A stretch of 64,000 bases of DNA from Candidatus Sumerlaeota bacterium. GTDB lineage: Bacteria; Sumerlaeota; Sumerlaeia; MWCT01; JAUWMI01. Numbering within the stretch: position 1 is the first letter of the stretch; the number at the start of each line of letters is the position of its first letter. Made by a program: the position numbers and the translations under genes. Under the pieces are notes generated by a model. It saw nothing but the letters and a program-made list of their open reading frames with translations. It was not told the DNA's origin and ran no database searches. Below are positions 7,360-34,642 of the stretch, piece by piece. The DNA is taken from contig JAUWMI010000022.1 in assembly GCA_030613245.1 (NCBI GenBank), positions 1-64,000 of the forward strand, read 5' to 3'.

Positions 7360-8178
7360 ATGAAAATTCGTTGTCCCCAGTGCGGAAGCGATAACACAAT
7401 TGATCAGAAGGATGTCATCTACATCCAATGTGCCTTTTGTGGGTCATCGCTCTATTTCGCTCGCGGACAGGCGGTGAAGCACTACTTCCTCGTTCCCAAC
7501 ATCCCTCCCAAAACGGTGCCTGGCCTGCTCCAGACCTGGTGCAAGGAGCAGGAGATCCATGGTAAACTCGACATAACGCAGCTGGAGCGTGTGTACGTTC
7601 CGGTGTGGAAGATAACGTTCAACGACGGTACGAGTCGGGTGGTCAGTGCATCACTTCAATATTTTAGCGGTCTGAGCGACCTGGGAATTCCTTCGGGCAG
7701 TTTGCGCTATTTTGAGCCTCATCTGCTTCAGGAGGAGCAGGTTCTGGACGTAGATATAGACCTTGAGCCCGTGCTGGCCCGGATAGATCAAAGATCGGAT
7801 ATGATCAGCCGGAATGTCCAGGATGTTTTTCAGGTGCCGGTTGAGGAGAAAGGGCAAGACAGTGATACAGAGACCGACATCCGAGAAGCAATCCTGTTTC
7901 ATCTTCCATTTTACATGATTGATTACACGTATAATGGCACGCCGTATACAGTAACGATGGAGGCAGCCACTGGCCGGTTTATTGCCTCAGAGACACCCCC
8001 GTCGTTTAAGGATATCCGTACTATGACGTATGGCTTGATTACAGTGGCCTCGCTATTGGTGTTTGTGGTTGAAGGTTTGCTGATACCCGATTTCTGGCTC
8101 GCTGTAGCCGTTGGAGGATGCACGTTCCTGGGATTTTATCTTCCGGTCACGATCTATCATACGTTGCAGCAGCGCTAA
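7360..8178 (+). CDS. Zinc-ribbon membrane protein 1 of a three-gene set
   Basis: I do not recognise the family. The 272-residue product starts with a four-cysteine ribbon (CPQC at residues 5-8, CAFC at 24-27). Then come a segment ending VYVPVWKITFNDG, and a second similar unit FHLPFYMIDYTYNGTPY followed by EAATGRF. Two hydrophobic helices lie near the C-terminus (YGLITVASLLVFVVEGLLI and the FWLAVAVGG to LPVTIY stretch). ATG 7360 has GGAAAGG at good spacing; the open frame upstream lacks protein-like character. It is the first gene of a plus-strand set with the genes at 8240 and 9546. All three share the ribbon and a beta-rich Y-x-P-x-W unit, so the ribbon plus duplicated beta unit looks like a modular fold anchored to the membrane. 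Confidence 0.75.
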   Translation: MKIRCPQCGSDNTIDQKDVIYIQCAFCGSSLYFARGQAVKHYFLVPNIPPKTVPGLLQTWCKEQEIHGKLDITQLERVYVPVWKITFNDGTSRVVSASLQYFSGLSDLGIPSGSLRYFEPHLLQEEQVLDVDIDLEPVLARIDQRSDMISRNVQDVFQVPVEEKGQDSDTETDIREAILFHLPFYMIDYTYNGTPYTVTMEAATGRFIASETPPSFKDIRTMTYGLITVASLLVFVVEGLLIPDFWLAVAVGGCTFLGFYLPVTIYHTLQQR

Positions 8179-8239
8179 CACAGCCACAACCGGAGGCCTG
8201 GGCTGAATTCTTAACGTAGGGAATTACTCATAGAGAACA

Positions 8240-9412
8240 ATGCGTGTAGAAGCTTCAGATGAACGTAATGCACTAACGGTGCTCAGCTGCAGCTCATGCG
8301 GGGGCGCTCTGGATTTTGGCCGCGGCTCGCATATTGCTCGCTGTTCCTACTGCAGTACCGCGCATCTTGTTATTGATCCAACCGGTGTGTTGCAATTTTA
8401 CTATCCCGCGCTCCAGACCCAGCAAGATGCACTACGCTGCATCTATGCAAAGGTTTTTCTTGATTCCGATGTCAACCAAGGGGTGAGCAAAAAGGCAGTG
8501 GTCCGGGATATTCAGCTTCTCTACGTGCCGTTTGTTGAATATCGCGCGAAACTAGTAATGAAAAAGCTGAAGAGAGGCGTTGTCGAGGATCCATATCGGC
8601 TTCACCAGATTACGAATTTCAGAGAAGATACAGAGGTGCGCTACGAGCGCTACGCACGCTACGAAGTCGGCTGCGACTTCAAGGAGATTCTCAACATTCC
8701 GATTGGCTGGGTGCGCGAGTTTGGCGAGTCGATTGACCAGCTCCGCGAGCCCGATCCTCAGCACCGCGTGTGTCTCTACCCGTATGACATCCAGAAGATG
8801 CAGCAGCAAGGACTGGTCTTTAACCTCAACAAGTCGCTCACACACTATATTGCTCAGTTCAAGAAGATCGAGCGCGATTTCGCTGATCATGATACGATCA
8901 TATTCGATAAAAATATGCGGGTGCTCTATTATCCCCTGTGGCGGGTGGTGTATGAGCACCGCGGGGATCTCTACACGGTCTATGCGGACGGTTTGCGTCC
9001 GACAATTATCCGGGCCAGTGCGCCGGAACGCCAGCGCTCACCAGTCTTCTCACTGCTTCTGGCAACGTTTCTGCTTGGGCTTGCAATATCACAGACGATC
9101 CATCACAGCCATGTATTGCTCAGGTGGATGGAGCAAGGAGTGGTGAATCCAATATATCGCTGGATGCTCGTTGGCACTTGTTTGCTCGGTTTTCTTGGAT
9201 TCATTACCCTGCTCGGCTTTCTCTCGGTGGCATGGACTCAGTTTCGCTACACAGGAAAGGTGGTCTTTGAACGTACTCAGAAGCAGATTATCCGTATCAA
9301 TAAACCTCCTCAGACGTTTTTGGAACGCGTGGTGGATGTTGCAATTGACATTTTTGGGAAGATTCTGGATCTCATTGTGAAGATCCAACAGAGACGCTTT
9401 CGATATTGGTGA
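8240..9412 (+). CDS. Zinc-ribbon membrane protein 2 of a three-gene set
   Basis: This 390-residue protein of unknown function has a four-cysteine ribbon (C17xxC20, C35xxC38). A first beta unit (IQLLYVPFVEYRAKL) follows. A roughly 120-residue middle region carries ERYARYEVGCDFKEI and YDIQKMQQQGL. A second unit reads LYYPLWRVVYEHRGDLY followed by YADG. Two hydrophobic helices follow at about 275-292 and 310-335. After the second helix comes a 50-residue tail of alternating basic and hydrophobic residues. It is the largest and best-developed member of the trio. The gap to the previous gene is 61 nt and to the next 133 nt, which suits co-transcription. No enzyme motif is visible. Confidence 0.78.
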   Translation: MRVEASDERNALTVLSCSSCGGALDFGRGSHIARCSYCSTAHLVIDPTGVLQFYYPALQTQQDALRCIYAKVFLDSDVNQGVSKKAVVRDIQLLYVPFVEYRAKLVMKKLKRGVVEDPYRLHQITNFREDTEVRYERYARYEVGCDFKEILNIPIGWVREFGESIDQLREPDPQHRVCLYPYDIQKMQQQGLVFNLNKSLTHYIAQFKKIERDFADHDTIIFDKNMRVLYYPLWRVVYEHRGDLYTVYADGLRPTIIRASAPERQRSPVFSLLLATFLLGLAISQTIHHSHVLLRWMEQGVVNPIYRWMLVGTCLLGFLGFITLLGFLSVAWTQFRYTGKVVFERTQKQIIRINKPPQTFLERVVDVAIDIFGKILDLIVKIQQRRFRYW

Positions 9413-9545
9413 GTCAATAGTTGTCGCTGGATTGCTTGATTCCCGACAGGGGCCGTTTTCGCCAGCAGAAAATGAGGTAATAGAATTTGCATGAAAGAAC
9501 CATTGGGCTTAGACTCTGATTATTTCTAAATCCAGGGAAAGGCTT

Positions 9546-10157
9546 ATGCCACAGGCTGACGCCCAAGCTGGCTTACAGGTTATTCCGCTCAAGTGTCCTC
9601 GGTGTAAGACGCAGCTTAATGCTGAGGATCGAGACGTTGTATACTATTGCGCTCAATGCCGTGAGGGATTTGAGCTGGCGGGGAATAAATTCTTTCCTGT
9701 ACAGGTGCGGTTTGCGCTTCCCCAGTGTTCCCGGCAAGGCACGCCTGTCTACCTTCCGCTGTGGTGCTTCAGTGTTGCGCCAGAGTTCCAGAGTAAGAAC
9801 CGGTTCAAATTGACGCGAATTAATCAGTTCGGCTTCGCGTTCCGGAAGGTCTATGTTGAGGGGTTCTCAAGACAGGCAACCAGTTTGCGATTGGACATTG
9901 GCCTTCTCTATACCAATGCACAGCTCGAGTTCGAAACTGTTCAATACAATACGTTACGAGGGTGCAGTCGCTATCGCAAAGATGCGCTGCAATTTGCCAA
10001 GATTATTGTGCTCGCCCTTATTGATCAAAAGGTGGACATTACGGGGGTGGACGTTCAGCTGAACGTACAAGATTGGAATCTTGTCGGGTTTCCGTTCTAC
10101 AAGGAGGGAATTGCCTACTACGACGGTATACTCGGCAAGAAGTTCTATATTGATTGA
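9546..10157 (+). CDS. Zinc-ribbon protein 3 of a three-gene set (soluble)
   Basis: This 203-residue member lacks membrane helices. It has the same N-terminal ribbon (C17xxC20, C35xxC38), and the phrase before the second pair (DRDVVYYC) resembles gene 1 (KDVIYIQC). The beta unit TPVYLPLWCFSV follows. The C-terminal half ends in a conserved-looking NLVGFPFYKEGIAYYDG stretch, which may be a second degenerate unit. GGGAAAGG precedes the ATG at good spacing. It looks like a cytosolic partner of the two membrane-bound paralogues. Confidence 0.75.
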   Translation: MPQADAQAGLQVIPLKCPRCKTQLNAEDRDVVYYCAQCREGFELAGNKFFPVQVRFALPQCSRQGTPVYLPLWCFSVAPEFQSKNRFKLTRINQFGFAFRKVYVEGFSRQATSLRLDIGLLYTNAQLEFETVQYNTLRGCSRYRKDALQFAKIIVLALIDQKVDITGVDVQLNVQDWNLVGFPFYKEGIAYYDGILGKKFYID

Positions 10158-10292
10158 GCAGTCGGGGAGTTTTCTATAACGCCGACTGCTCATCCTGAGG
10201 AGCGAAGCGACGAAGGATCTCTATAATGGTTTGACAGGAGATCCCTCGTTTCGCTCGGGATGAGGGGTCGGAGGTAAAACTCCCCGACCCCT
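10156..10292. repeat. Composite nested-hairpin repeat, copy 1
   Basis: Three hairpins stand head to tail. The first is a 10-bp stem, GAGCAGTCGG / CCGACTGCTC (10156-10191). The second is a long imperfect stem built on CATCCTGAGGAGCGAAGCG against CGTTTCGCTCGGGATG (10191-10264). The third has a GGGGTCGG / CCGACCCC stem (10265-10292). The same module order, the second hairpin then the CGGGTC...GACCCG hairpin, recurs at 62574-62710. The first hairpin starts at the stop codon of the third zinc-ribbon gene and may stop its transcript, although no T-tract follows. Confidence 0.75.
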
Positions 10293-10494
10293 CATATTGA
10301 TTGATACTGTAAGCGCGGCTTAGCCAGACGTCATTCGCCGCAATGATTGCTCTTGTTACGGCCATCCGGCGATTTGCCGATGGCGGGATGCACATCGGTT
10401 CGATCTGTCTATCTATAGGATTTGGAGCGCATAGCAAAAAGCAATATCGAACCACGACGACACGACGTGGACAGGTCTTAGGCGCATTAGCAAT

Positions 10495-11835
10495 TCAAAC
10501 CGTAGGGGCGATCCGGCGGGTCGCCCTCGCTTCCTTCAGCCGTTGAGCCACAAGATGAAAAGTAGTTGCGCGCGTGATTTGCACGCGCAGCCGGTCGCCA
10601 GGCTGTAGAGCATTCTTCTCCCTGAGCTCCGCTCCATCATCCTTGTCTTGAGGAATGACTACTGGCTTGTACGCAGTATTGCGCGCCAGCCAGCTTCCAG
10701 CCTTGCGTTGCTCGCTTATCAAGACCTCACCTTCCCAGCCAACCCAACTGAGATTACTAGCCAGCGCAAGGTCTTTTACGAGCTCAGTGAGACGGCGCGA
10801 ACGCTGCGCCACGATCTTTGCCGGCACTGGAGGGAGAGCGGCAGCCTCAGTTCCCGGACGTGGGCTGAATCGCGAGCGGTTGATCGTCGCAGGCTTGACC
10901 TTTCGCAGCAGTGCCAGAGTTTGCTCGAAATCCTGATCCGTCTCTCCCGGGAATCCCACAATCACGTCGGTTGCAATTGTGCCGCGCGGAAACGCCTGGC
11001 GAAACTGCTGGCAGATGTCATGGAAGTCTGCAACCCGATAAGCCCGATACATTGCCCGCAGCATGCGATCGCTGCCTGATTGCACGGGAACGTGGAGGAA
11101 TTTGTACATCCTGTCGCTTTGGAAGATCTGAAGCAGCTCGGGAAGAACGTGCTGGATGTGATTTGGATTTGCCATACCAAGGCGTATGAAAAATTGTCCG
11201 GGCAGGGTGACGAGCCGGCGTAGCAGCTTGGTGATATTAGTTCCAATGTCCTGTCCATACGCGCCAGTGTCTTGCGCTGTAAGCCAGAATTCCTTTACCC
11301 CGTCTTGCAAGGCGCAGCGCGCCTGCTGCACTATTTCGTCCTCGGGATAAGAGACCAGTTCGCCCCGCGCAAGCCTCGTCTGGCAATATGCACATCGTCC
11401 CAGGCAGCCTTTACAGATAGGCAGGATTTCGACGACAGAGTTGCGCCGGAGCTTCGGGAGATTGAGACGCTTATTGTCGCCGCCGTCAAGGTGCTGAAAC
11501 CGCTTTCCGGTCAGAGTAGCGGTCACCGCCTCAGCAATCTGGCTAATGTTGTCGGTCCCAATACATGAATGGCGATTCAAAAGCGCCGAGTGCCGGTAGG
11601 CCTTTGGGATACACCCGGCAACAACAAGCGGTCTTGCGGCAAGTTCCCGCAAGCGCTTTTCAAAATTTCGAAACGTCCCGTCCTTGACTGTGCAGGAATT
11701 CAGCACAACAATATCCGCATGCTCCGGATTGCCGACAATGCGGTAGCCCGCCTGGCTGAGCAGACCAGCCATCAGCTCGCCATCAGCAACATTCAGGCTG
11801 CATCCATAGGTTTCGATGTAGACGCTTTGTGACAT
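10495..11835 (-). CDS. Archaeal/eukaryotic-type tRNA t6A37 methylthiotransferase (CDKAL1/e-MtaB-like)
   Basis: This 446-residue radical SAM enzyme should convert t6A37 to ms2t6A37 in ANN-decoding tRNAs. The N-terminal UPF0004 domain has the three cluster cysteines (ETYGCS, LNSCTVKD, VAGCIPKA). The radical SAM motif is CLGRCAYC, followed by ARGELVSYP. The phrases QDTGAYGQDIG, GMANPNH, YKFLHVPVQSGSD and TDVIVGFPGET are those of the archaeal/CDKAL1 branch rather than bacterial MiaB or MtaB. A TRAM RNA-binding domain closes the protein. The last nine or so codons are formed by a GTAGGGGCG-type repeat (10502-10527), so the native C-terminus has been replaced or extended. Confidence 0.9.
   Translation of the reverse strand: MSQSVYIETYGCSLNVADGELMAGLLSQAGYRIVGNPEHADIVVLNSCTVKDGTFRNFEKRLRELAARPLVVAGCIPKAYRHSALLNRHSCIGTDNISQIAEAVTATLTGKRFQHLDGGDNKRLNLPKLRRNSVVEILPICKGCLGRCAYCQTRLARGELVSYPEDEIVQQARCALQDGVKEFWLTAQDTGAYGQDIGTNITKLLRRLVTLPGQFFIRLGMANPNHIQHVLPELLQIFQSDRMYKFLHVPVQSGSDRMLRAMYRAYRVADFHDICQQFRQAFPRGTIATDVIVGFPGETDQDFEQTLALLRKVKPATINRSRFSPRPGTEAAALPPVPAKIVAQRSRRLTELVKDLALASNLSWVGWEGEVLISEQRKAGSWLARNTAYKPVVIPQDKDDGAELREKNALQPGDRLRVQITRATTFHLVAQRLKEARATRRIAPTV
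10502..10527. repeat. GTAGGGGCG-type palindromic repeat, copy 2, inside a coding end
   Basis: GTAGGGGCGATCCGGCGGGT followed by CGCCCTC is an imperfect palindrome of the family at 1346 and 22581. It overlaps the 3' end of the CDKAL1-like gene and supplies its stop codon context. Confidence 0.7.
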
Positions 11836-13852: not shown

Positions 13853-14599
13853 TTACAGCTTATCAAGCAAGGTAAACATATGTTTAATGTTTGAGCCCTT
13901 CAAATAGTTTTTGAAATCCCATTTTATTTGCATAGCAATGACTTTAGCCAAATTTGGTGTCCATATTTTTTCTTGTTCGCCCAAATATCTAGTCACCTTG
14001 AGTACGAAAGAGCCACTCAATCCTGGTGCTCGTGGTAACTTAATCTTGGACCCGCTAGAAGTTTCTATATTTTCTAGTTCCATAGGGTACGCGCAGTAGA
14101 GGAAATCTTTATCTGAAGGCTTTTTGCTATATGGAATGGTGTGATAGCTCATCGGCATATTGTAAACACCATTCTCTCTTTCATCCTTAAGCTGTGACGG
14201 ATATCCGCAAACCACTAGATTTGTATTGTCGAAGGAATACGCGCTGAAATCATCAATCAACTCGAAATCTTTAAATTCGTACGCAGCGGGCAACTCGCAC
14301 TCACCGATAACCTCTATAATGCCTATGTCAGTTTCATCATCAGTAAAAGCTGCATAGCGGAGCTGTTTATCATAGATTCTCTTATTTTTCTGAAGAATTA
14401 TATAGCGGCCGCTTTGCATCTGAAAAAACTCGTCCGCCACGTGCCTACAGGTCGCAATGAATACACGACCATCATACCTGAGAAGGTTTCCTGTCCCGAT
14501 TGCACGTACATAACAGCTTCTTGACTTCACCCACAGATTAAGCGCGTGTCGTGTTTGTCTATCGAGTTGGACTTGTTTGTCAGGCAAATCTTTGCCCAT
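13853..14599 (-). CDS. Trypsin-like serine protease domain protein (island unit A)
   Basis: This 248-residue protein has no signal peptide, so it is probably cytoplasmic. It carries a recognisable chymotrypsin-fold triad: His53 in FIATCRHVAD, Asp91 in DETDIGIIEV and Ser195 in PGLSGSFVL. GTGNLL sits where the family usually has its first beta strand. Proteins of this kind often occur beside mobile elements and in defence loci, but the target here is unknown. The C-terminal half is repeated as a truncated copy at 15970-16272. Base composition is more AT-rich than the flanking chromosome, which fits its island location. Confidence 0.7.
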   Translation of the reverse strand: MGKDLPDKQVQLDRQTRHALNLWVKSRSCYVRAIGTGNLLRYDGRVFIATCRHVADEFFQMQSGRYIILQKNKRIYDKQLRYAAFTDDETDIGIIEVIGECELPAAYEFKDFELIDDFSAYSFDNTNLVVCGYPSQLKDERENGVYNMPMSYHTIPYSKKPSDKDFLYCAYPMELENIETSSGSKIKLPRAPGLSGSFVLKVTRYLGEQEKIWTPNLAKVIAMQIKWDFKNYLKGSNIKHMFTLLDKL

Positions 14600-15969: not shown

Positions 15970-16272
15970 TTACAGCTTATCAAGCAAGGCAAACATCAGT
16001 TTAATGTTTGAGGACCTTAGAAAGTTTGCCTCATCCCATTCTATTTGCATAGCAATGACTTTAGCCAAATCTGGTGTCCAAATTTTCTTCTGCTTGCCGG
16101 CAAATTTAGGCACCTTGAGTACAAAAGAGCCGCTCAAGCCTAGTGCTGGTGGCAGCTTAATCTTGGACCTGTTAGCAGTATCTATATTTTCTAGTTCCAT
16201 AGGGTATGCGTAGTGCAGGAAATTTTCATCTGAAGGCTTTTTGCTATCAGGTGCAGTGAAATGTTGGAGCAA
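15970..16272 (-). pseudogene. 5'-truncated copy of the trypsin-like gene (unit B)
   Basis: The 100-residue frame matches the last 95 or so residues of the gene at 13853 (shared SKKPSD, YAYPMELENI, GLSGSFVLKV, IWTP, LAKVIAMQI and a common LLDKL end). It keeps the serine motif but has lost the regions that carry His and Asp. The break falls near 16255, six to twenty bases from the stop of the PLP-enzyme gene, so the two genes were joined by a deletion or recombination. An in-frame ATG exists, but a protein without two thirds of the triad is unlikely to be a protease. Confidence 0.75.
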
Positions 16273-32426: not shown

Positions 32427-33542
32427 ATGAACATTGCACTCGACATTCGTATGATCAACTATTCAGGGATCGGAACGTACGTTCGTGGGCTCCTGGAGGG
32501 CTTTTCAGCGCTTGCGGATGAAGATGTGAGCCTCTATTTGCTTGGCAATGAGCCGCAAGTACCTCGTGTTCCATCAAAGCTGTGCTGCGAGTATCGCTGC
32601 CTTTCACTGCCGATTTACAGTTTTCGCGAACATCTCTTCTATCCGCGCACCGTGCCGCAGGTCGTATGTCTCCACCACCCACATTACCATTGTCCAGTAT
32701 CTTATCGGGGCCGGCTAGTTGTGACGATTCACGATTTGAACCATTTTCTCTTTCCCGAGTACTTACCCACACATTTGCACCATATCGTGGCCAAGTGGAT
32801 TCTGAAGCGTTCAATCCGTCGTGCAAGCAGAATCATTACGGTTTCTGAGTATATTAAGGGCCAATTGGTGGAATATCTTCACACTGAGGCAGAGAAGATT
32901 GATGTAATCCCTAACGCAGTGAGCGAAGAGCTCAGACCATGCGACGATCAGGAGCGTGTTGTCCAGTTTCAGAAAAAGCATCAGCTGCCAGCTCAGTATT
33001 TGCTCACCGTGGGGATCAACAAGCCGCATAAGAATTATGAATTTTTGCTGCGGGTGATGGCCCACTGCTGGCAGAGCAAGGCGGTCGAGCTCCCGCTTGT
33101 GTTTTGTGGTATTTCGGAGCGGAGCAGGGCGAATCTTGTAGCAACTATTGAATCGCTGAATATAGGGCCGCGTGTGATCTTTCTGCCGTATGTTGCTCAC
33201 CCTGAGCTGGCGCTGGTATATGCAGGGGCAACGGCTCTGGTTTTTCCGTCGTTGTACGAAGGGTTTGGTTTGCCGCTGCTTGAGGCCATGAAGATGGGTG
33301 TTCCTATTGCCGCATCAAAACGACCACCCATGCCTGAGGTTGCAGGCGATGCAGCGGTTTGGTTTGACCCAACCGACATGGATGAGGCAGGGGCAGCAAT
33401 TCAGCGTGTGGTCGGCGACCAGACGTTGCGCATGTCGCTCATCAAACAGGGCCGCGAGCGGGCTCAGACGTTTAGCTGGGAGAAAAGTGCCCGCGCAACT
33501 CTGGATGTCTATAAACACATTCAAAACACGAGTGGCGTATAA
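32427..33542 (+). CDS. GT4 family glycosyltransferase (mannosyltransferase-like)
   Basis: A 371-residue GT-B enzyme that transfers a sugar from a nucleotide donor during surface polysaccharide assembly. The N-terminal half shows the acceptor-side glycine loop YSGIGTYVRGLLEG, then VVTIHDL and ITVSEYIKGQL. The donor domain has LLTVGINKPHKNYE and the family motif FPSLYEGFGLPLLEAM (an E-x7-E pair). It opens a plus-strand operon: its stop overlaps the next start by one base. Confidence 0.93.
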   Translation: MNIALDIRMINYSGIGTYVRGLLEGFSALADEDVSLYLLGNEPQVPRVPSKLCCEYRCLSLPIYSFREHLFYPRTVPQVVCLHHPHYHCPVSYRGRLVVTIHDLNHFLFPEYLPTHLHHIVAKWILKRSIRRASRIITVSEYIKGQLVEYLHTEAEKIDVIPNAVSEELRPCDDQERVVQFQKKHQLPAQYLLTVGINKPHKNYEFLLRVMAHCWQSKAVELPLVFCGISERSRANLVATIESLNIGPRVIFLPYVAHPELALVYAGATALVFPSLYEGFGLPLLEAMKMGVPIAASKRPPMPEVAGDAAVWFDPTDMDEAGAAIQRVVGDQTLRMSLIKQGRERAQTFSWEKSARATLDVYKHIQNTSGV

Positions 33543-34642
33543 TGAGAGTAGCACTTGTTCACGACTGGCTCAATGCAATGCGCGGTGGCGAGAAGATTCT
33601 GGAGCTCTTGTGTGAGCTCTTTCCAGAGGCCGAAATTTTTACATTGTTCTACGAGCCGGACAACGTTTCGGCCTTAATTGCGTCCAAGCCAGTGCACGCA
33701 TCTCCACTTCAGCGGTTTCCGTGGGCGCGCAAAGCATATCGTCATTACTTGCCGCTTTACCCTTGGGCGATTGAGCGCTTCCGGCTGCAGGGATTTGACC
33801 TGGTAATCTCAACAAGCCACTGTGCGGCAAAGGGCATCCGGGTTCCGCCGCCAGCCCGCCACGTGTGTTACTGTCTGACGCCCATGCGCTACATTTGGGA
33901 TTTGTTTGATGTCTATTTTCCGCGCCACGGACCGCGGCCATTGAGCTCGCTGGCTATGCGGCTAATGGTCAAGCGCCTGAGGCGGTGGGACGTGGCGACT
34001 GCTCAGAGAGTAGATTTTTTTATTGCAATTTCCGAGTACATTGCTAAAAAGATTTCCAGGTACTACGGGCAGAGCGCAGCCGTTATCTATCCGCCGGTTG
34101 ATACGGAGTTTTTCACACCGGGCAGTGTAAAGAAGTCCAGACAGTATCTTATCGTTTCAGCCTTGGTTCCGTACAAACGCACTGAAATTGCTATTGCAGC
34201 TTTTAATAAACTCGGGCTTCCTCTGGTGATTGTTGGGGAAGGCCCTGAGGCGCGGCGACTGCACGCAATCGCGAAGAAGAATATTACATTCCTGGGGTGG
34301 GTTAAAAACGAGTGGCTGCGGCAGCTTTATCGCGAGAGTCAGGCGCTTATATTCCCGGGCGAGGAAGATTTCGGCTTAGTGCCCGTTGAGGCGCAAGCGT
34401 GTGGGATACCGGTGATTGCTTATAAGAAGGGCGGAGTCCTGGAGAGCGTTGTGGATAGCATTACGGGTTGTTTTTTTGAGCCACAAACTGCGGATGCACT
34501 CCGAGAAGCTGTAGAGCGGTTTGACCCGATCCGCTACGAGACCGCGACTGTCCGGAAGAATGCAGAGCAATTCTCAAAGCAACGCTGCGCCGAGCAGCTG
34601 CGCGAATTTGTTGCATTGAAAATGGCGGAGAAGAATGGCTAG
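33542..34642 (+). CDS. GT4 family glycosyltransferase (WbaZ-like)
   Basis: A 366-residue GT-B protein starting RVALVHDWLNAMRGGEKILE, the N-terminal pattern of WbaZ/RfaG-like mannosyl or rhamnosyl transferases. The middle has YCLTPMRYIWDL and ISEYIAKKI. The donor domain has LIVSALVPYKRTEIAI, IVGEGPEARRL and PGEEDFGLVPVEAQACG. It is translationally coupled at both ends, by a 1-nt overlap upstream and an 8-nt overlap downstream, so the three genes act together in building one glycan. Confidence 0.93.
   Translation: MRVALVHDWLNAMRGGEKILELLCELFPEAEIFTLFYEPDNVSALIASKPVHASPLQRFPWARKAYRHYLPLYPWAIERFRLQGFDLVISTSHCAAKGIRVPPPARHVCYCLTPMRYIWDLFDVYFPRHGPRPLSSLAMRLMVKRLRRWDVATAQRVDFFIAISEYIAKKISRYYGQSAAVIYPPVDTEFFTPGSVKKSRQYLIVSALVPYKRTEIAIAAFNKLGLPLVIVGEGPEARRLHAIAKKNITFLGWVKNEWLRQLYRESQALIFPGEEDFGLVPVEAQACGIPVIAYKKGGVLESVVDSITGCFFEPQTADALREAVERFDPIRYETATVRKNAEQFSKQRCAEQLREFVALKMAEKNG

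Follow-up and report, generated by a model that had tools for sequence, protein, structure and literature searches.

Three adjacent genes in a 64,000-nucleotide stretch of contig JAUWMI010000022.1 of a Candidatus Sumerlaeota bacterium (hereafter the window) each encode a protein that begins with a zinc ribbon, which raises the question what such a set does and with which partner it works. The localisation of YdjI and PspA at the membrane of Bacillus subtilis requires YdjG and YdjH (PMC8581546), and the trio bears on how most bacterial SPFH (flotillin-like) proteins reach the membrane and what they do. It also gives a hint at the function of zinc-ribbon proteins for which neither Pfam nor NCBIfam has a named model. 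A search of open-access papers yielded no account of the trio; the three genes, here called A, B and C, probably encode a membrane-organising complex in a form that has not been described.

Genes and sequence features

An initial annotation, made from the sequence alone, reported three plus-strand genes, each with a ribbon and a Y-x-P-x-W-type strand, and all genes and all motifs quoted there are present. The genes are genuine open frames with the following features.

7360-8178, plus strand: gene A, 272 aa, with zinc ribbon, alpha/beta domain with two Y-x-P-x-W-type strands and C-terminal membrane helix pair
7372-7440, plus strand: zinc ribbon of A, C5-C27, cysteines invariant (n=17 homologues)
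7591-7608, plus strand: strand motif 1 of A, VYVPVW (residue 78), by motif search and alignment
7894-7914, plus strand: strand motif 2 of A, LFHLPFY (residue 179), by motif search and alignment
8014-8154, plus strand: hydrophobic helices of A, about residues 219-265, by hydropathy
8240-9412, plus strand: gene B, 390 aa, with zinc ribbon, alpha/beta domain, two membrane helices and C-terminal helix
8288-8353, plus strand: zinc ribbon of B, C17-C38, by alignment; NCBIfam TIGR01053 above its cut-off
8516-8536, plus strand: strand motif 1 of B, LLYVPFV (residue 93), by alignment and AlphaFold2 model
8921-8941, plus strand: strand motif 2 of B, VLYYPLW (residue 228), by alignment and AlphaFold2 model
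9041-9247, plus strand: membrane helix pair of B, residues 268-298 and 304-336, by AlphaFold2 model and hydropathy
9546-10157, plus strand: gene C, 203 aa, soluble, with zinc ribbon and alpha/beta domain, by alignment and AlphaFold2
9594-9659, plus strand: zinc ribbon of C, C17-C38, by motif search and alignment
9747-9764, plus strand: strand motif 1 of C, VYLPLW (residue 68), by alignment and AlphaFold2 model
10080-10100, plus strand: strand motif 2 of C, LVGFPFY (residue 179), by alignment and AlphaFold2 model; absent from the initial annotation

Each protein carries one C4 ribbon, inside its first 40 residues. When residues were shuffled 20,000 times per protein, no shuffle of A, B or C combined a ribbon in the first 60 residues with the observed number of motifs. 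Alignments of homologues (17 for A, 21 B-type and 16 for C, almost all of them from outside the window's genome) show no substitution of the four ribbon cysteines or of the proline in the motif. Gene A starts at the ATG at 7360, a start backed by an orthologue that begins with MKIRC; an A orthologue is present in the relative G001, and A-type homologues occur in 16 other genomes. By hydropathy, C-terminal hydrophobic helices are present in A and B and none is found in C, in agreement with the earlier description of the third member as soluble. Scans for promoters and terminators gave nothing better than shuffled sequence.

Elsewhere on the minus strand of the window, a 248-aa open reading frame (13853-14599) and a 100-aa fragment (15970-16272) have a common C-terminal sequence and could be a gene and its decayed duplicate; Pfam has no match to either.

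Occurrence and gene order in other genomes

The sample comprised 386 genomes, among them that of the window (G000), which is 96% complete. A search with the single proteins found the trio, in the same gene order, in G000 and in G001, a relative from the same taxonomic order (a Candidatus Sumerlaeota MAG, with the trio locus on contig JAGHBZ010000309). A contig scan reached this sister Sumerlaeota MAG only, because its patterns were derived from two sequences. The loci of relatives of P0007, a paralogue described below, revealed the same set of three genes in families unrelated to one another. Profiles of A, B and C were then built from these loci and used to search the 386 genomes, and the fetched loci were annotated. 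With these profiles the confinement of the trio to two genomes proved to be an effect of sensitivity and was rejected. Whether the trio is kept as a unit elsewhere had been left by the initial annotation as a point to check: complete A-B-C trios with the order kept are neighbours in 14 of the 386 genomes, from 11 families (G000, G001, G068, G073, G142, G154, G168, G215, G223, G257, G278, G346, G350 and G355). Partial sets were also seen, with B and C together and A elsewhere in G279, B and C in G115, and A and B without C in G153 and G290.

Other genes near these loci were recorded. A gene near the trio of G257 (L140, 8979-9758) and one near the B-C pair of G115 (L082, 6405-6995) each encode an FHA-domain-like protein, with a cysteine motif at the N-terminus. 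Glycosyltransferase genes adjoin the trio in G001, and two genes in the window (32427-34642) resemble the pair that directly follows it there (L007, 5443-7692). A functional link of the trio to these genes was considered but not upheld: in the window the similar genes are 22 kb distant, and they were not seen at the other trio loci that were read.

Kinship and predicted structures

Comparison of the A and B profiles gave an hhalign probability of 99.8 over 189 columns, spanning the ribbon and both strands, and A and B, as judged from sequence, are clearly paralogous. They are also clear paralogues of a one-gene family that is widespread, includes YdjG and combines ribbon(s), alpha/beta domain and membrane hairpin. 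The window's genome itself carries one of its relatives, P0007, on contig C4; this paralogue has relatives in 40 of the 386 genomes, and the B profile matches it at 1.5e-28 over most of its length. P0007 (L008, 5089-6144) has one ribbon and lies upstream of F-type ATP synthase genes, with no SPFH gene beside it.

The C to A comparison reached 97.5 across 30 columns, at that level the ribbon alone, and past the ribbon the C profile matches A and B weakly. The origin by gene duplication that had been suggested for the whole trio thus stands for A and B, and for C it extends to the ribbon and a short strand match. C appears to be homologous to A and B at least in the ribbon, and it is tied to them also by the strand and by natural fusions. 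These fusions join an A/B-type to a C-type protein (408-482 aa), directly follow an SPFH gene in G146, G282, G335 and G096, and so link C to A and B. Two of them, checked by hydropathy, have no membrane helix, which means that membrane anchoring is not general. The topology of the trio and the fusions fit the earlier proposal of a membrane-anchored complex with a soluble partner, in which A, B and C would be in physical contact.

A duplicated beta unit inside the proteins had also been proposed. The strand units compared within A and within B gave hhalign probabilities of 86-89 over only 17-24 columns, which is consistent with an internal duplication and is not proof of it. In the AlphaFold2 model of C, which is of good quality (pLDDT 87.6, pTM 0.84), the motifs lie after the ribbon, on one long strand each (68-83 and 168-187). 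In that of B (pLDDT 77.9, pTM 0.68) helix 61-73 is followed by strand 87-107 and helix 200-215 by strand 219-240 and two further strands, with membrane helices 268-298 and 304-336 and a helix at 360-389 in the C-terminal part. In these models the two motif units would be long strands within one alpha/beta domain, not separate domains.

Domain and fold searches

When A, B and C were scanned against Pfam and NCBIfam, all ribbon matches stayed below threshold except a generic LSD1-type finger on B, and sequence searches of solved structures with the trio matched mainly ribbons. The closest ribbon matches are those of RNA polymerase subunit P, TFIIB-type and ribosomal S27e ribbons, and a regulatory role has been suggested for the ribbon of YdjG (PMC9239133). 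The ribbons might accordingly bind nucleic acid, and the set would then be a membrane-tethered regulator, not an SPFH anchor. We consider this unlikely: short C4 ribbons match one another regardless of function, the TFIIB and RNA polymerase zinc-ribbon families gave only sub-threshold Pfam and NCBIfam matches to the trio, the same databases revealed no helix-turn-helix, cyclin or other nucleic-acid domain in A, B or C, and the gene that constantly accompanies the set across genomes encodes an SPFH protein (see below).

Foldseek and VIA-align comparisons of the B and C models with solved structures gave no clear counterpart of the alpha/beta domain; the rows for B cover mostly the helix pair or the ribbon. 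B has a weak fold match to YycI (Z 2.6, rmsd 2.7 over 71 residues), and PepSY (PF03413) matches residues 183-211 of A with an E-value of 0.039, below its cut-off. Both would agree with the YpeB-related domain with which YdjG has been described (PMC11237479).

Relation to YdjG

B. subtilis YdjG was compared by means of an orthologous operon in G364, where the order of PspA, YdjG-type protein, TPM-domain protein and SPFH-ribbon protein is that of Bacillus pspA-ydjGHI. The YdjG-type protein of G364 starts with MPVIEYKCPNC and ends with MGGGFL, in agreement with residues read by hand from the ydjG primers (PMC8581546); the ends of its YdjH-type protein, in which the TPM domain was confirmed, likewise agree with hand-read cloning-primer residues (PMC8581546). 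Profiles A and B match the YdjG-type protein with E-values of 1e-17 to 1e-18 in the ribbon and strand regions. The initial annotation, which recognised no described family for the set, is corrected in this respect, as A and B share a wide family with the YdjG-type protein of pspA-ydjGHI operons. Taken together, A, B and C represent the YdjG-type SPFH partner in a three-gene form.

This kinship, together with the complete pspA-ydjGHI order in G364, could suggest that the trio is the anchor of a classical phage-shock (PspA) module. We regard this as very improbable, and for G000 as largely refuted, since a search for PspA (PF04012) came back empty for 13 of the 14 full-trio genomes, including that of the window, with a match in G257, and since the gene ahead of the SPFH gene codes for a separate coiled-coil protein instead. 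The same search, run as a control, gave a match in 9 of 14 control genomes. The system of the window therefore appears to be independent of a recognisable PspA.

Association with an SPFH protein

The arrangement of a fully linked operon is seen in G154 (L085), where A, B and C follow a gene for a coiled-coil protein of 166 aa and one for an SPFH protein of 349 aa. This SPFH protein gave a Band_7_1 match at 7e-62 and carries double zinc ribbons at its C-terminus. G257 has the same five-gene order. An SPFH-ribbon protein of this kind occurs in 68 of the 386 genomes overall. Every one of the 14 trio genomes has it, compared with 54 of the remaining 372 (Fisher p 8e-12, uncorrected for phylogeny), and so do 39 of 40 genomes with a B-type profile match, compared with 29 of the remaining 346 (Fisher p 1e-33, likewise uncorrected); the co-occurrence may be partly due to shared ancestry. 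Members of the one-gene family lie in the same locus as an SPFH gene, usually adjoining it, in about 18 of 40 fetched loci; a lone two-ribbon member beside the SPFH gene is common to many genomes other than those with the trio.

Several observations count against reading the trio as an SPFH anchor. The SPFH gene of the window's genome, 57% identical to the trio-linked copy of G154, is not beside the trio and sits on contig C70 (59311-60360), outside the stretch on which the initial annotation was based; in G115, which has B and C, the SPFH search gave no match; and C is missing from G153 and G290, where A and B are present. On balance, the partnership of trio and SPFH protein is well supported by gene context, and the anchoring step would follow by analogy with Bacillus.

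The coiled-coil gene lies directly upstream of the SPFH gene in G000 also (L132, 8381-8998, contig C70), and precedes it in 12 of the 14 trio genomes; the contig ends there in G001, and none was found in G346. It was further recorded at L085, L134-L136, L140, L146, L147 and L167-L175. The protein has 166-205 aa and the motif IPGYxGYxxxExRR...GYSGFFD, without any Pfam match above cut-off and, in NCBIfam, with only a sub-threshold match to the Leptospira LIMLP_15305 family.

In the operon of G146 (L146), the genes for an SPFH-ribbon protein and an A/B-C fusion are followed by those for an NfeD protein that contains a Clp-like protease domain and for an SPFH protein of the stomatin type (these last two at 8811-11075). 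Because the operon continues in this way, and because the SPFH protein matches HflC and HflK weakly, a role of the trio in membrane-protein quality control was weighed, in which it would act with NfeD and stomatin-like proteins and modulate a membrane protease as HflK/C do. This seems improbable to us: among the loci read, the NfeD linkage was seen at that of G146 only, and the fully linked trio operons of G154 and G257 show no protease gene.

Proposed mechanism

We propose, with a probability of about two in three, that the trio works with a YdjI-type SPFH protein, with A and B as membrane part and C as cytosolic part, and docks it without PspA. A and B would be inserted in the membrane by their C-terminal helix pair, with zinc ribbon and alpha/beta domain presumably facing the cytosol, where C would join them. 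Together A, B and C would dock the SPFH oligomer at the membrane, like YdjG and YdjH do for YdjI in Bacillus subtilis, and with it may help to organise or protect the bilayer under stress, again without PspA. A possible, rather doubtful extension is a five-part, PspA-independent machine for membrane organisation or repair that also includes the coiled-coil protein; here A and B would form the base, C would link the SPFH cage, and the coiled-coil protein would replace PspA, a member of the ESCRT-III family.

That the trio accompanies one class of SPFH proteins even without PspA suggests that the pairing of YdjG and YdjI is independent of PspA, and the trio supplies defined genes with which this can be tested.

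Comparison with known systems

The trio resembles YdjG in its N-terminal zinc ribbon, in an alpha/beta domain with P-x-W strands and in an SPFH partner with a C-terminal ribbon. A and B also have the C-terminal membrane segment of YdjG, whereas C does not. YdjG is one protein with two ribbons, while here there are three single-ribbon proteins, one of them soluble. It is paired with the TPM protein YdjH and with PspA, which was not found in the window's genome; the SPFH protein with zinc ribbon is present there, on another contig. The YdjI-type SPFH protein (Band_7_1 with C-terminal zinc ribbons) is accordingly the partner of the trio and not its homologue. Members of the one-gene family (for instance L054, L063 and L070) share the architecture of the trio and its Band_7_1 SPFH neighbour, but consist of a single gene, usually with two ribbons and two membrane helices, and lack a separate C protein.
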